From: Flavisolibacter tropicus
GTDB taxonomy: Bacteria > Bacteroidota > Bacteroidia > Chitinophagales > Chitinophagaceae
Assembly (NCBI RefSeq): GCF_001644645.1
Contig: NZ_CP011390.1
Span: forward strand, 806,001-870,000
Direction of reading: 5' to 3'
DNA: 64,000 nucleotides
Shown: positions 3,565-55,397 of the stretch, in pieces
Position numbering within the stretch: position 1 is the stretch's first letter
Layout: each line of letters opens with the position of its first letter
The notes under the pieces: model-generated
What the model was told of the DNA's origin: nothing
Seen by the model: the letters and a program-made list of their open reading frames with translations, nothing else
Database searches by the model: none
Program-made: the position numbers and the translations under genes

Positions 3565-6500
3565 TTAATTCAAGTTTCTAAAGTCCACACTCACCAGCTT
3601 ACTTACTCCCGGCTCTTGCATGGTTACACCATAGATCACATCTACAGTGCTCATAGTGGTCTTGTTGTGAGTAACTATAATAAATTGAGAGTTTTGGCTA
3701 AACTCACGAATCATCTTTGTAAACTTACCCACGTTAGCATCATCCAGAGGGGCGTCAACCTCATCAAGAATACAGAATGGAGCAGGCTTAATCAGGTAAA
3801 TGGCAAACAGTAAGGCAGTTGCCGTTAACGTACGCTCACCACCACTAAGCTGTCCAATGCTAGCCGGGCGTTTACCTTTTGGCTTAGCCATGATGTCAAT
3901 TCCTGTTTCAGCCAGGTTGTCTGGATTTTCTAAAATCAAATCACACTGATCATCTTCGGTAAACAAGGCTTTAAATACTTTATGGAAGTTCTCACGTACT
4001 TGGTTAAACGTATCTAAGAACTTCTGGTTGGCTGTAGTTTCTACTTCAGCAATTGTTTGCAACAGGCTTTCTTTAGCAGTAACAAGGTCGTTCTTTTGTT
4101 CAACGATAAACTCATAACGTTTCCTCATTTCTTCAAAAGCCTCAATTGCAGTTGGGTTAACCTCTCCGAGGTTCTCCAACCGCTTCTTCATTTTGTCGGC
4201 TTTTTCCTGAAGCTCCTCCACTGGAGTTGTTCCAGTTCTAGCTTCATCAAGTATCTCTTCCAGATTAATTCTAAACTCAACGTGCAAGCGTTCTTTCATA
4301 CCGGCCAAGCCAAGCTTAACATCTGTCAGTTTATCCTTAAGTGCATTTAAAAGTTGCTCAATGGCATCTTTCTCTTTAACTATCTGGCGCAACTCGCTTT
4401 CTTTAGTGCTTAACTGGTTGCGTATATTATAGTATGCCTGGTCTGCTTCATTTAGGCTGCTTTCTTCCGCTTCACGTCTGCGCATTAAATCATATAACGC
4501 ATCAGCTATGCCTTGAAGGTCTTCCTGTAATGTTTCAATATTAGAAGTAGCTTCTCCTAATTGCTTTGTGTTTGTTTCTACTTGCTGGCGCAGGTCGTTT
4601 AATTGATTGCTCTTGAACTGATGTTCCTGTTTTAAAGCAGTGATCTTACTTTGCTGGCGTGTTAGATTCAGGTTGCTTGCATTGTACTGGGTATTTATTT
4701 CATTATACTCCATTTCAATGCGGCGGTAATCACTTTCTGCTTGTTGTAAACCTTCCGTATACTGTGTAAGATTTTCATTCAAAGAGTTCAATTCTCCTCT
4801 TACTGCTTCAATTGAAGCCTGAGTCTGATCTAACTGGCTGTGTAGATCTTCTACGCGGGTACGAGATTGATTTTGTGTATGTACCAAGTTCTCCAAGCGG
4901 TTTTGAACAGAGAACATTTGGTTATTTAACTGTCCAATCTCACGCTCCGTATCCTTAATTACATTCTCTTTCAAATCCTGGTTAAAGGCTATTACTTCAT
5001 TGTGACGAGCTTGTATCTGATTTTTCAAATCATCTACTACCACTTGTTGTGCTAAGATCTCTTCCTGTAATTTCTCCAGGTTTTTAGCACGACCAATTTT
5101 CTTGCCTTCAAATAAACCTACACTACCACCTGATAGAGAATATTTACCTTTTACATATTTACCATGACGTTCCAGTATAACCGCGCCATTAGTACTTTCT
5201 AAAGCAATATCAGAATCTGCAATAAAAACGTTGCCTAGTAATTGCTCTGCTAATTTCTTGTACTGGGCATCAACTTCTATTACATCCATTGCTGCAATGG
5301 TGCCTTCTGGTTGATGGCCAATTGCACCTTCTGTTGAATTAACCTTATCCAAAAGGAAGAAGTTTGCCTTACCTTTTTTGTTTTCATCCAAAAGATGAAT
5401 GGCTTGTAAACCTTCTGCCAGGTTGTTTACTACATAGTAGTTCAAATAAGGTTCCAATACATTTTCTACAGCAGCACGATAGGATTCTTTTACATAAATG
5501 ATATCTGAAAGAATTGGGGCTTTATGGTTCCAACCTTTATTATTATGTAAGAACTTAATACTTTCTGGATAGCCTTCCATGCTATCGATGAGGCTTTTCA
5601 GCAGGTCGTGCTCATTCTTCTTAGCGTCAAGCTTACGATTTTCTTCTGCTAATTGGGTACGCAACTCCTCTAATACAGACTGAGTCTGTAAAATTTGCTC
5701 TTTGGTAGTATTATGGTGATGCTGAAGTTGGTCCAGGTCTTTTTTCCGGGTTTCCAGCTCTTTTTGCTTATTATCTTTTTCTACTTCCAGTTGTTGTATC
5801 TGCTCCTCACGGTTAGCGCGTTCTTCCTCTATTTGGTGAATGGCACGTTGCAAATTCTGAATAGAGGTATCTGCAATGGCAACTTTTTTCTCTGCATCAA
5901 ATTGGTTTCGCTGTACTTGCTGGAAAGAGTTGCGTAAGTCATTAACAGCCGTTCTCTTTTCGTCTAAGATGCTACGCTTCGCATCTACCTGGTTGCGATA
6001 TTCTTCTAATTGAGAAGTCAGGCCTTCTAATGCACCTTCTTCATCTTTTATCTGTTGCTCTGTAAAGACAATACTCTCCTCAATACCAGTAATTTGGCCA
6101 CCGGCCTTTGAAAGGAAATCTTGAAGTCCAGTAGCTCTTTCTTTCAAATGCTCCAGCCGTTGAGAGGCTAAGCTCTTTTCGTTTTCTTTGGTTCGCACCT
6201 GTTGCACCAGCTCATTAAATGACTGTTGCATGCTATGCAAGGATTTTTCTCTTTCTATGAAGCCTACTCTTTCTTGTTCCAAAGAAGCTTCGCGTGTAGC
6301 TATATCAGCTTCTAAAGCAATGCGTCTGTCTGTTTCTTTTTCATGTTGCTCATTCAAGTCTTTGAACGTTAGATTGAAACCTTCGAGTGCAGCCTTAGCT
6401 AATTCAATTGAGATCTCACGATAATCCTTCTTGATCTCATAGTATTTCTCAGCTTTTTTTGCCTGATTTTCAAGCGTTTTAAGCTGATTGTTAATTTCAA

Positions 6501-35572: not shown

Positions 35573-35604
35573 CTTGTTAGGCTTTGGCTATGAGCGTAAC
35601 TTAC
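35573..35604 (+). promoter_or_regulatory. Promoter of small-RNA candidate, copy 1
   Basis: CTTG (35573-35576), exactly 20 bases, then TAACTTAC (35597-35604). This is the Bacteroidetes -33/-7 arrangement (TTTG, TAnnTTTG) in a slightly weak form. Copy 2 has the same spacing. Confidence 0.6.
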
Positions 35605-35607
35605 TAA

Positions 35608-35668
35608 CAGTTTTCATAGGGTACGGATTAAAAACGGGCCAGGGTTTCTACCCAGGCCTTATTTTTTA
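35608..35668 (+). ncRNA. Candidate small RNA, copy 1
   Basis: Conserved 5' block from 35608 (contains CATAGGGTACGGATT), identical over 26 nt to copy 2 at 55339. It is followed by a hairpin GGCC-A-GGGT/ACCC-A-GGCC with loop TTCT (35637-35658) and a T-rich tail TTATTTTTT. With the promoter just upstream this is a complete unit of about 60 nt. It sits between convergent genes, and no ORF fits. Confidence 0.65.
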
Positions 35669-51856: not shown

Positions 51857-53431
51857 ATGTCCAATCGGTCTACAGATATATTGTTCCAATTGATACGTTC
51901 TCTGGAAAAAGCAGAGAAACGGCATTTTAAACTATACATCAACCGTAACTCCTCTAACGAAAATCTTAAGATTGTTCAGCTTTTTGATGCTTTAGATAAG
52001 GCAAAGGAATATGATGAGAAACTGATCTTAAGAAAAGTAACAGATATTCAAAAAGCACAGCTGTCTAATTTAAAAGCACACCTCTATAAACAGATATTGG
52101 CCAGCCTGCGTTTATTAAAGAGCGCCGATAGTTTGGATCTGCAGTTAAATGAACAATTTGACTATGCCCATATCCTTTATAAAAAAGGACTTTTTCTGCA
52201 GAGTCTTAAAATATTGGAAAAAGTCAAAGCGCTGGCGAACGCTAATCAGAAATATAGCTTTTTACCTCAGATCATTAACCTGGAAAAGCGCATTGAAGCC
52301 TTGCATATTACTCGTAGTATGGAAGACAGAGCTGAAAGCTTGTCAATGGAGGCAATTGAGGTTAGTAAGCATATAGATATGGTGGCTCGCTTGTCTAATT
52401 TATCGCTGCTGTTGTATAGCTGGTATATCAAAAACGGACATGCAAGAAACGAGCAGGATGAAGATAAGCTGAAGGAGTTTCTCAAGACCCAGCTACCTGA
52501 TGATGCATGGGAACAAACAGGATTTTATGAACGCATGTACCTCTATCAAAGCTATGCTTGGTACGCTTTTATACGTCGCGACTTTTTAATGTATTACCGG
52601 TATTCACAGAAGTGGATCAACCTGTTTCATGAAAATCCATTAATGAAGCGTGTAGAAACGGGACATTACATTAAAGGCCTGCATAATCTGCTAAATGCGC
52701 ATTTTGATATCAGGAACTATAAGAAGTTCCAGGAAACGCTTTTAGAATTAGAGGCGTTTTCAAAAACAGATCGCGTACAGGAGAATGAGAACTTTCGCAT
52801 ACATTCATTTATATACATATCGCAGGCCAAAATGAACCAGCATTTCATGACAGGGTCTTTTGAACAGAGTATGAGCTTAGTGAAAGAGATAGAAGATCGC
52901 TTAAAGGATTATGAGATGTTCATAGACAATCATCGTGTGCTGGTATTGAATTACAAAATCGCTACACTCTATTTTGGAAATAATGATTTTGAGAAAAGTA
53001 TCGATTATCTCCATAAAATCATTCACCAGTCTACCGATTTGCGCTACGACTTGCAGTGCTATGCTCGACTTCTGCACTTACTAGCACATTTTGAATTAGG
53101 TAATCACGATCTGATTGAGCACCTGGCTAAGTCAGTGTACCGGTATATGGCTAAAATGAAGAATACAACCGCATTAGAAAGGGAAATGTTTAAGTTCCTG
53201 CGTCAAGCTATGAACTTATCCAGGTATCAATTAAAAGAAGAAATGGTTTCTTTCCTGGAACGTATTAAGGTCTTAGAAAAGAACCGGTTTGAAAATCGCT
53301 CTTTTGCCTATCTCGATGTAGTCTCTTGGATTGAAAGCAAGATTCAGAACCGCAAGATGAGTGAGATTGTACAGGAGAAGTATAAGAAGGGATTGCAGAA
53401 AAAACAATTAACACCCATCAGTGGATTGTAA
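51857..53431 (+). CDS. Hypothetical helical repeat protein (paralogue of 37833-39410)
   Basis: This 524-residue protein begins MSNRSTDILFQLIRSLEKAE and is all-helical. It matches its paralogue along its whole length, for example FKLYINRNSSNENLKIVQLF against FKLYMKRNSSNEDLKVIQLF, and the shared ends AYLDVVSWIESKI and AYLDIISWLESKI. It has no signal peptide. I do not know its function. The two copies sit outside the ends of the leucine/isoleucine operon and face away from it. A strong terminator follows. Confidence 0.82.
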   Translation: MSNRSTDILFQLIRSLEKAEKRHFKLYINRNSSNENLKIVQLFDALDKAKEYDEKLILRKVTDIQKAQLSNLKAHLYKQILASLRLLKSADSLDLQLNEQFDYAHILYKKGLFLQSLKILEKVKALANANQKYSFLPQIINLEKRIEALHITRSMEDRAESLSMEAIEVSKHIDMVARLSNLSLLLYSWYIKNGHARNEQDEDKLKEFLKTQLPDDAWEQTGFYERMYLYQSYAWYAFIRRDFLMYYRYSQKWINLFHENPLMKRVETGHYIKGLHNLLNAHFDIRNYKKFQETLLELEAFSKTDRVQENENFRIHSFIYISQAKMNQHFMTGSFEQSMSLVKEIEDRLKDYEMFIDNHRVLVLNYKIATLYFGNNDFEKSIDYLHKIIHQSTDLRYDLQCYARLLHLLAHFELGNHDLIEHLAKSVYRYMAKMKNTTALEREMFKFLRQAMNLSRYQLKEEMVSFLERIKVLEKNRFENRSFAYLDVVSWIESKIQNRKMSEIVQEKYKKGLQKKQLTPISGL

Positions 53432-53544
53432 AGGCACTACTTAGTGCCTCCTATTGTTTTTAATGTTTGGCAAAATTAGGCGACTCTAAGTCTTGCAATA
53501 ATGCCAACTTTGTCGTATCAATTTCTTACTCGTTTAATTAAAGG

Positions 53545-53585
53545 AAAAAAGAAGCACTGTATCTACAGAGCTTCTTTTTTTATTT
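53545..53585 (+). terminator. Terminator after the helical paralogue
   Basis: The stem AAAAAAGAAGC-a-CTGTA / TACAG-a-GCTTCTTTTTT ends in a run of seven T and TATTT. The symmetric A- and T-runs make it bidirectional. Confidence 0.9.
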
Positions 53586-53741: not shown

Positions 53742-54863
53742 TTACTTGCCATCAATCCATTTTATACAAACAGGATTTGGCACTTCAATACGTTTACCTG
53801 TATCGGTCAATAGCCCAGTTTCGGGGTTGATGCTAAAGATCACAACGTTGTTTGTATCCTGGTTAGCTACCAGCAACAACTTACCTGTAGGGTCAAAGTT
53901 GAAGTTACGTGGCGCTTTACCCATAGTAGATTGTTCCCCAACTAATGTCAACTTACCATCTTTTTGGTTAATGCTGAAGATAGCAATGGTATTTGTTGGG
54001 TTTCTGTTAGACGCATACAGGAATTTTCCGTTGGGAGAAACATGAATATCAGCACTGGTAGCGGCACCCTTAAAATCGGCTGGTAAGAGCGAAATAACCT
54101 GTTGCTCTTTCATTGTTCCTTTATCATAAGAAAAAACTGTTACCGTACCAGAAAGCTCTTGTACCAAATAGGCCCAATTACCTGATGGATGAAATTCCAA
54201 ATGGCGTGGCCCTGATCCATCTGCAACCTTTACATGTTGCTTCTTGGGAGAAAGAGTGCCGGCCTTATGGTTAAATGTATATTCCACCACTTGATCGATT
54301 CCAAGGTCTGGAACAAAAAGATACTTGTTGTCAGGTGAAAGAACAGTAGCGTGTACGTGCGGACTAGCCTGGCGCTCTTTATTGGCGCCGTGGCCCTGGT
54401 GTTGCATATTGGTTGAAGGGTTTCCTACTCCGCCGTCTGGAGCAATTGGCATTACAGCTAGGTTGCCCGTACTATAATTACCTACAAAAACCCAGTTATT
54501 CTTTTTATCAACCGCTATATAACAGGGATGGTCACCCATTGAAGGTAACTGGTTAATTAGGGATAGCTTCTTGGTGGATTTGTTATAGGAATAAGCACTC
54601 ACCTTGCCACCACCTTTGTCATTTCCATCTTCATTTACAGCATAAACATAGCGTTCATTGGGAGCTACAGCCAGGTAAGAAGGGTTAGATGATTTAACTG
54701 AATCTCTTAAAACGGCCTCTCCTGAGCCGCTATTAAAGTCATATTGATAGATCCCATAGCTCCTTCCACTTGTATAGGTACCAATTAAAAGAGTACTCTG
54801 CGCCTGTGCCTGACTGGCTAGACTTGCCAGCACATAGCCTGTAGCAATCAAATGCTTAGTCAT
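53742..54863 (-). CDS. Lactonase family protein (6-phosphogluconolactonase-like)
   Basis: This 373-residue, seven-bladed propeller has a signal peptide (MTKHLIATGYVLASLASQAQAQ). Motifs are LIGTYTSGRSYGIYQYDF, GNYSTGNLAVMPI, HATVLSPDNKYLFVPDLGID, GPRHLEFHPSGNWAYLVQEL and APRNFNFDPTGKLLLVANQ, which fit the YbhE/lactonase family. The cytoplasmic E. coli relative hydrolyses 6-phosphogluconolactone; the exported form here may act on another lactone. No pentose-phosphate genes are adjacent. Confidence 0.88.
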   Translation of the reverse strand: MTKHLIATGYVLASLASQAQAQSTLLIGTYTSGRSYGIYQYDFNSGSGEAVLRDSVKSSNPSYLAVAPNERYVYAVNEDGNDKGGGKVSAYSYNKSTKKLSLINQLPSMGDHPCYIAVDKKNNWVFVGNYSTGNLAVMPIAPDGGVGNPSTNMQHQGHGANKERQASPHVHATVLSPDNKYLFVPDLGIDQVVEYTFNHKAGTLSPKKQHVKVADGSGPRHLEFHPSGNWAYLVQELSGTVTVFSYDKGTMKEQQVISLLPADFKGAATSADIHVSPNGKFLYASNRNPTNTIAIFSINQKDGKLTLVGEQSTMGKAPRNFNFDPTGKLLLVANQDTNNVVIFSINPETGLLTDTGKRIEVPNPVCIKWIDGK

Positions 54864-55302: not shown

Positions 55303-55334
55303 TTTGCAGAAACAAAGCCTTAGGTGTAGCTTGG
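55303..55334 (+). promoter_or_regulatory. Promoter of small-RNA candidate, copy 2
   Basis: TTTG (55303-55306), exactly 20 bases, then TAGCTTGG (55327-55334). This is a good Bacteroidetes -33/-7 pair. The spacer length equals that of copy 1. Confidence 0.65.
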
Positions 55335-55338
55335 TTTC

Positions 55339-55397
55339 CAGTTTTCATAGGGTACGGATTAAAACGGGCTGAAGTTTCCACTTCGGCCTTTTTATTT
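55339..55397 (+). ncRNA. Candidate small RNA, copy 2
   Basis: The 5' block is identical to copy 1 over 26 nt. The hairpin is GGCTGAAGT/ACTTCGGCC (55367-55388) with loop TTCC and tail TTTTTATTT. Compared with copy 1 most stem positions change on both arms together, and one pair becomes G-T. It lies in the 177-bp gap between two minus-strand small genes. Confidence 0.65.

Follow-up and report, generated by a model that had tools for sequence, protein, structure and literature searches.

The window analysed here is a 64,000-nt stretch of the Flavisolibacter tropicus genome (G000:C1:806001-870000, in a single-contig genome of 5.94 Mb). It contains two repeat loci, at 35608-35668 and 55339-55397, both outside every listed long ORF. 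Each is composed of a 5' block, a hairpin and a T-tail, with TTG-type and -7-type boxes positioned 20 nt apart upstream. The 26-nt sequence CAGTTTTCATAGGGTACGGATTAAAA at 35608 recurs letter for letter at 55339. This identical block, the box pairs with a spacer of exactly 20 bases (CTTG-N20-TAACTTAC and TTTG-N20-TAGCTTGG) and the UUCN-loop hairpins followed by T-tails had been described in the initial annotation, and all can be read at the two loci. The loops are TTCT and TTCC, and the arms differ in sequence with retention of pairing. Predicted folding energies are -16.2 kcal/mol (z -1.7) for copy 1 and -15.5 kcal/mol (z -2.5) for copy 2. The parts, with the evidence for each, are as follows:

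35573..35604, plus strand: putative promoter of copy 1, with CTTG (35573-35576), a 20-nt spacer and TAACTTAC (35597-35604); sequence, and a -7-like box position common in the family
35608..35635, plus strand: class I 5' block of copy 1, CAGTTTTCATAGGGTACGGATTAAAAAC, a predicted unpaired seed with a predicted 5' end near 35608; sequence, folding and family conservation
35636..35667, plus strand: predicted terminator hairpin of copy 1, GGGCCAGGGTTTCTACCCAGGCCT, and T-tail; sequence, folding and covariation
55303..55334, plus strand: putative promoter of copy 2, with TTTG (55303-55306), a 20-nt spacer and TAGCTTGG (55327-55334); sequence and family box position
55339..55365, plus strand: class I 5' block of copy 2, CAGTTTTCATAGGGTACGGATTAAAAC, a predicted seed with a predicted 5' end near 55339; sequence, folding and family conservation
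55366..55397, plus strand: predicted terminator hairpin of copy 2, GGGCTGAAGTTTCCACTTCGGCCT, and T-tail; sequence, folding and covariation

The exact 15-base core of these loci occurs at five sites in the genome, every one with a 5' block, a GC hairpin and a T-tail. Because only about 0.01 such 15-mers would be expected (an arithmetic estimate over 11.9 Mb of strand), the five are not chance matches; ten sites with two mismatches are about the number that chance would give. A covariance model built from the five class I copies (R1) finds six diverged class II copies with GGTTTTTCATAGGATATTGGATTTT (b1-b3 and k1-k3; E 3.6e-8 to 1.3e-4) and one class III copy. The two-locus repeat first reported is real, but the copy number in the genome is 12 (five class I, six class II and one class III), not two. 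The class I and class III copies are located as follows:

inside the window: class I copies c1 and c2
1,229,589, minus strand: class I copy c3
2,825,310, plus strand: class I copy c4
5,468,651, minus strand: class I copy c5
4,435,668, minus strand: class III copy d1, GGTGTTTTTCATAGGTTAGCAACGGCC (R1 match, E 0.024)

A joint model of the classes (R2), which has some of these copies among its building sequences, scores all 12 at 62.6-73.7 bits, and the next match in 1.06 Mb of own-genome stretches reaches 24.2 bits. That match is a stand-alone, terminator-like hairpin without the block, located in the window at 53530-53584 between genes at 51857-53431 (plus strand) and 53742-54863 (minus strand). 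The hairpin versions do differ between the two window loci, as originally noted, but each version recurs (c1 equals c4; c2 equals c3 and c5). Among the 29 non-copy TTTTCATAGG sites in the genome, the 21 inspected by eye include none with a strong terminator hairpin and T-tail. In intergenic sequence close to an AraC-like gene (L006:1490-1760; G000:C1:174058-174352, minus strand), the block recurs several times in degenerate form and sense orientation (GTTTTCAGAGGGTACGGATC, GTTTTACATAGGGACAGATT, CAAAGGATACGGATT and GTTTCAATAGGGTACGGAAT) without terminator hairpins; this stretch is possibly a decoy or a decayed array. A stretch on the minus strand of L080 resembles it.

Homologues of the kind that a covariance-model search of the genome and of other Chitinophagaceae had been expected to reveal are present in most sampled genomes of that family, which is the inferred family of the window genome. 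At E 0.01, R1 matches 84 of 89 same-family genomes and 107 of 148 genomes overall; the matches in 23 of the 59 genomes from other families are all weak (E 1e-4 to 1e-2). The strict class I/II pattern TTTTCATAGGRTAY(N)GGATT is found in 63 of 298 genomes of the order, corresponding to 63 of the 85 same-family genomes and none of the 213 from other families, and the reversed control has no match anywhere in the 298. Phylum-wide, the same pattern occurs in 12 of 395 genomes (12 of 14 in the family, 0 of 381 outside it). Class III, with up to two mismatches allowed, is found in 52 of 117 same-family genomes (reversed control, seven). A hairpin is present at 29 of 30 fetched class III loci, the exception being a two-mismatch match. 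A pattern scan of named genomes matched at least 119 stretches; among the matches listed are Niabella, Niastella, Ferruginibacter, Flavihumibacter, Cnuella, Filimonas, Longitalea, other Bacteroidota and one member of the Opitutae. By eye, three of 122 listed sites are without a hairpin: L139, L144 (Opitutae) and L187.

To describe the conserved parts we used 217 distinct class I/II sites, derived from 246 collected by the exact core after near-end sites and exact duplicates were dropped; two viral contigs are included. A fixed rule detects the hairpin and T-tail at 215 of the 217, failing at L139 and at L216, where the hairpin is just below the energy limit. Information content is low upstream (0.2-0.3 bits per position) and rises sharply to 1.5-2.0 bits at -3/-2, directly before the block; the 2.0 bits per position inside the 19-20-nt core arises by construction, as the sites were collected via the core. 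The exact core is also held by 37 of 40 stretches chosen with R1, and by all 29 top R1 loci, R1 itself being built from the class I block. The three exceptions are L082, with one change, and L099 and L105, which have diverged blocks and a hairpin. Comparison shows a common architecture in which the conserved 5' block is followed by a short A-rich linker and a covarying hairpin of predicted intrinsic-terminator type. The three classes share UUUUCAUAGG and differ after it.

The initial annotation took the differing arms as evidence of stem covariation. The five own copies provide two double-changed pairs, a number matched by 245 of 500 shuffles, but covariation is strong once relatives are added. 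In 138 dereplicated class II sequences, columns 38-47 are paired in 138 of 138 (GC 103, AU 18, CG 11, UA 5, GU 1), compared with a mean of 96 and a maximum of 105 in the shuffle control. Class II also has excess pairing at 34-52, 37-48 and 39-46, with little or no excess in the lower stem pairs, and 55 class I sequences have a covariation excess at 33-52, 37-48 and 38-47. A further 4-bp pairing is predicted within the block of class II, and its columns never vary. In these sequences the 5' block is nearly invariant while the promoter sequence drifts and the hairpin covaries. Peptide coding was considered and set aside, as single-base variation in the linker and the drifting stems argue against it.

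The upstream boxes occupy narrow ranges relative to the block. TAnnTT is positioned at -15 in 83, at -14 in 46 and at -13 in 6 of 215 sites, and a looser scripted rule finds a sigma-A-type (-7-like) box at -15 to -13 from the TTTT of the block at 145 of the 215. GG-N8-TTG, which is the -24/-12 pattern of sigma-54 promoters, lies at -29 in 15 sites, at -28 in 4 and at -30 in 1, and no other position has more than 4. The window copies are not among the 20 of 215 sites with this sigma-54-type sequence pattern; own copies that have it are c3 (weakly), c5 and class II b1-b3, and the genome contains two RpoN genes. Comparison shows that paralogues stand behind predicted sigma-A-type or sigma-54-type promoters at the same distance to the block. 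The initial proposal of an RNA of about 60 nt with its own promoter, its own terminator and an unpaired 5' block fits the invariant block, the covarying hairpin and the boxes at fixed distance. These loci almost certainly represent a real, multi-copy family of small RNAs of about 60 nt in the Chitinophagaceae.

We surveyed the genomic positions of 202 loci in 200 distinct contexts, naming genes by reading their sequences rather than by family search. Three positions recur. In the first, class I adjoins a polysaccharide-deacetylase-type gene (51 loci), and a TatD-type gene is upstream in 33. In the second, class II follows a GldN-type gene (35) and precedes a UvrC-type gene (30), and in the third it follows a pyruvate-dehydrogenase-beta-type gene (12). 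Own copies c4, k3 and k2 occupy these recurrent positions. Two class II copies are present per locus at L083, L100, L160, L204 and L226; in the L204 and L226 pairs the promoters are near-identical within the pair.

A repeated DNA element that spread by duplication, such as a mobile repeat or a REP-like terminator, with no RNA regulator involved, would account for a short, multi-copy sequence that forms some tandem pairs, enters two phage contigs and, at c1 and c2 in the window, lies outside the recurrent positions. We regard this as the least probable of the explanations considered. Positions are kept across the family at the deacetylase-type cluster and after the GldN-type gene, the promoter boxes, hairpin covariation and T-tail are retained while the rest drifts, and sigma-A-type and sigma-54-type promoters interchange at equal spacing. 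Very unlikely, too, is a cis-acting element, be it a terminator or leader of a neighbouring gene or a read-through 3'UTR product. Gaps between convergent genes hold 93 of the 202 loci, 24 overlap a predicted ORF of at least 80 aa, mostly at the ORF end, and the hairpin is a good terminator, all of which such an element would explain; against it, the neighbours of the 12 own copies are unrelated to one another, a promoter-like box directly precedes the block in most, and a terminator by itself would not conserve a 20-nt block.

The class I/II pattern is also present in 14 viral contigs, with full copies in two: L336, of 236 kb with baseplate-like and ribonucleotide-reductase-like genes, and L342, with a terminase-like gene (names assigned by eye). 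The viral pattern GTTTTTCATAG-N12-42-GCCTTTTTT matches 57 stretches representing 27 distinct sequences. A hairpin of -11 kcal/mol or below is found in 11 of these distinct sequences, in 25 contigs, and some of the others look coding. Phage contigs L429-L484 carry short genes consisting of GTTTTTCATAG and a terminator, with varying hairpins (e.g. the group L429, L439 and L446).

The family probably consists of trans-acting translational repressors of the GibS/FopS type. RNA polymerase would start at the block and stop at the hairpin, which would leave the block as the exposed 5' end. The block would then pair in trans across mRNA start codons and block initiation, as FopS does. The targets of class I would most likely be the mRNAs for a set of secreted or envelope proteins, several promoters may allow different signals to feed one seed, and RRM-domain proteins are the likely protein partners. 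We infer transcription, pairing, repression and partner proteins alike from sequence.

The block contains UUUUCAU, the complement of AUGAAAA. A simple start-codon target rule was rejected: CCTATGAAAA occurs at 41 sites genome-wide (11 of them outside fetched loci, three of those being known copies), 12 of which are the RNAs themselves, and the 29 others, not clearly enriched over 24 in the reversed control, gave a plausible gene start at only 2 of the 21 non-copy sites inspected. SusC starts show no special pairing in the 30 inspected of 41 SusC genes over the cut-off; energies of -14 or below were reached by 3 of 30 for class II and 2 of 30 for class I, versus 139 and 164 of 844 genes in a rough comparison involving longer windows.

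Pairing was tested more generally as ViennaRNA duplexes with 806 genes of the own genome and 595 genes of other contigs. Genes near copies were removed because RNA copies antisense in gene windows (L122 and L228) gave artefacts, and L139, L144 and L187 were dropped from the other-contig test as not RNA loci. Class II complementarity to gene starts is strongest at L139 and L187, so dropping them works against class II. The hairpin-less class II block of L139 (site near 4114) is antisense, along roughly 24-25 nt, to the start region of a gene for a small lipoprotein-like protein, and the hairpin-less L187 (site near 2888) is nearly as complementary to a gene start.

For class I, 16 own-genome translation-start windows pair at -18 kcal/mol or below, compared with 5.2 (sd 2.8) in shuffles, none of 60 of which reach 16; coding windows give 10 versus 8.2. 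At -20 no excess is left (1 versus 1.4 among the 806 genes), and the mean difference between start and coding energies is reached by 4 of 60 shuffles. When shuffles keep the first 10 nt of the block, the 16 compare with 8.3 (1 of 50 reach it) and 7.6 (3 of 40). With the same constraint, 11 of the 16 are secreted-like by a crude script rule, versus 3.0 (0 of 40), and 11 matches lie over the ATG, versus 4.5 (1 of 40). In the 595 other-contig genes, 33 windows reach -16 or below versus 13.7 (3 of 60 shuffles reach this), 15 of the secreted-like kind versus 4.6 (0 of 60). The class II block has no enrichment at starts in the own genome or the other contigs once the first 11 nt are kept. Genes for signal peptides often begin with ATGAAAA. 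For this reason, and because gene starts were crude, several thresholds were applied and shuffles were few, the target tests are suggestive only, pointing to modest pairing above shuffles of the class I block, and of class I only, with translation starts of mostly secreted-like genes.

The RNAs could alternatively be protein-binding decoys, with the block bound by an RNA-binding protein, of the RRM-domain or another type, that the copies titrate, as Csr-type sponge RNAs do. Hfq (PF17209) has no match over the cut-off in the own genome (best 15.1 bits versus 27), and RRM_1 has 11 over the Pfam cut-off (L383-L390 and three more places), which would supply candidate proteins. Near-invariance over about 20 nt (exact core in 37 of 40) exceeds what a base-pairing seed needs, and class II is without a target signal. 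Excerpts of the FopS study report that the RRM protein RbpB binds FopS and, as an antagonist, titrates it off its targets in vitro (PMC11697453). We nevertheless consider decoys unlikely. The three classes keep UUUUCAUAGG and are sharply different downstream, which divergent target specificity fits better than one protein site; class I has a pairing signal at translation starts; and FopS, the closest analogue, works by pairing. Under trans-acting repression, a host with 11 RRM_1 genes and no Hfq over the cut-off would be of the same kind as that of the FopS system.

No family in Rfam release 15 reaches its gathering threshold for the window or the copies. The low scorers MicC, SorY and MicX were rejected as far below gathering (best, MicX, 31.6 versus 75 bits, E 0.00055), as was a GibS-like stretch upstream of one copy (E 0.002-0.05). 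The GibS threshold (RF04182, gathering 115 bits) is unmet in the window, and the own genome has no GibS match at E 1e-4. The class I and class II seed cores, in DNA or RNA letters, occur in none of the literature searched. The family is new in the sense that it lies below every Rfam threshold and that these cores are absent from that literature. The initial statement that no named Bacteroidetes RNA matches holds at Rfam thresholds, but the 5' GUGUUUUUCAU[A/G]G and the architecture recur in GibS and in short RNAs of FopS-like type, which makes a relative among the named RNAs probable.

At E 1e-4 the Rfam model for GibS has matches in 4 of the 395 genomes of the phylum, and one of these exceeds the cut-off. 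The eight GibS-model loci start with GTGTTTTTCATAG (four) or GTGTTTTTCATGG (four). Six of these (L423-L428), labelled FopS-like by description, are predicted short RNAs with a terminator, following a TAT[AC]TTTG box. The first 13 nt of class III are those of L421, L422, L425 and L427. When 24 kb of sequence is scanned with R2, the six FopS-like loci come out on top, placed at their exact 5' ends, but their scores are weak (14.8-21.2 bits, E 0.0045-0.094) and lower than the 24.2 bits of the unrelated window hairpin, and the alignment has gaps in the block. In 620,970 bases from other families, a search for intermediates found no exact GTTTTTCATAG and two weak one-mismatch candidates; the best R2 match there (23.8 bits) is a hairpin without most of the block.

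The likeness to FopS and GibS may have arisen by convergence, as any seed able to read AUGAAAAA would come to contain UUUUUCAU. Convergence, a matter of origin only, is compatible with trans-acting repression and is quite possible: the shared part centres on the complement of the start codon, the R2 scores of the six loci are weak, and no clear intermediate was found in the other-family bases. On the other side, the AG after the octamer, together with GUG before it, is common to class III and four of the eight loci, GUG is present in all eight, -7-type boxes are similarly placed in six of the eight, and the multi-copy architecture is alike. Descent is likely, and would make the family distant relatives of the GibS/FopS regulators of gut Bacteroides. 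More speculative, and somewhat doubtful, is a Bacteroidota-wide, phage-borne anti-start-codon superfamily. Its GU(G)UUUUUCAUAG module would read AUGAAAAA starts, interchangeable downstream modules (I, II, III, FopS, GibS and phage) would pick mRNAs, and swapping between sigma-A and sigma-54 would couple a seed to signals, in hosts with no recognisable Hfq and many RRM proteins.

To our knowledge, most of what is known about post-transcriptional control in Bacteroidota comes from Bacteroides. Present across much of the Chitinophagaceae in as many as a dozen copies, the family would be a strong candidate for a main sRNA regulon there and would supply an outgroup for FopS and GibS. It would also open the question of how sRNAs work in the absence of Hfq or Shine-Dalgarno sequences to tests in culturable strains.

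The Qrr sRNAs, which depend on sigma-54 and Hfq, are another set of paralogues whose seeds overlap. The present family would resemble such siblings in that some copies have a predicted sigma-54-type promoter, and differs in that these are a minority and no Hfq exceeds the cut-off. Qrr is named in the Discussion of the FopS paper (PMC11697453). Rfp18 of Flavobacterium is likewise a Bacteroidota sRNA of conserved sequence, with mRNA effects, but in the excerpted text its predicted pairing region is the third stem-loop (PMC9723704), whereas here it would be the unpaired 5' block. GibS has an unpaired 5' seed that likewise pairs at start codons, according to excerpts of its description (PMC7366714). 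Class III has the same 5' GUGUUUUUCAUAG for 13 nt (in L421, which exceeds the Rfam cut-off, and in L422, which falls below it), but the GibS model is 142 nt long and includes a second seed and further hairpins. The closest parallel is FopS. For B. thetaiotaomicron, PMC11697453 describes 14 paralogues composed of a 5' seed that is single-stranded and a terminator; it gives experimental evidence in Bacteroides that they pair with susC mRNA start regions and block translation, and it reports a FopS sequence in a phage. The 12 copies here similarly have a conserved 5' seed predicted to be single-stranded, one predicted Rho-independent terminator and a putative promoter directly upstream, in a host with RRM-1 protein and with copies also in phage. 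FopS-like loci share the 5' start noted above with the class blocks but continue with the downstream seed UAUUAGAUUUAAGGUUAAC, where the present classes have GAUAUUGGAUUUU, GGUACGGAUUAAAAACGGGC or GUUAGCAACGGCC; three seed classes, sigma-54-type promoters and unenriched SusC starts also set the family apart. Although not a proven member, it is best filed beside the GibS/FopS kind.
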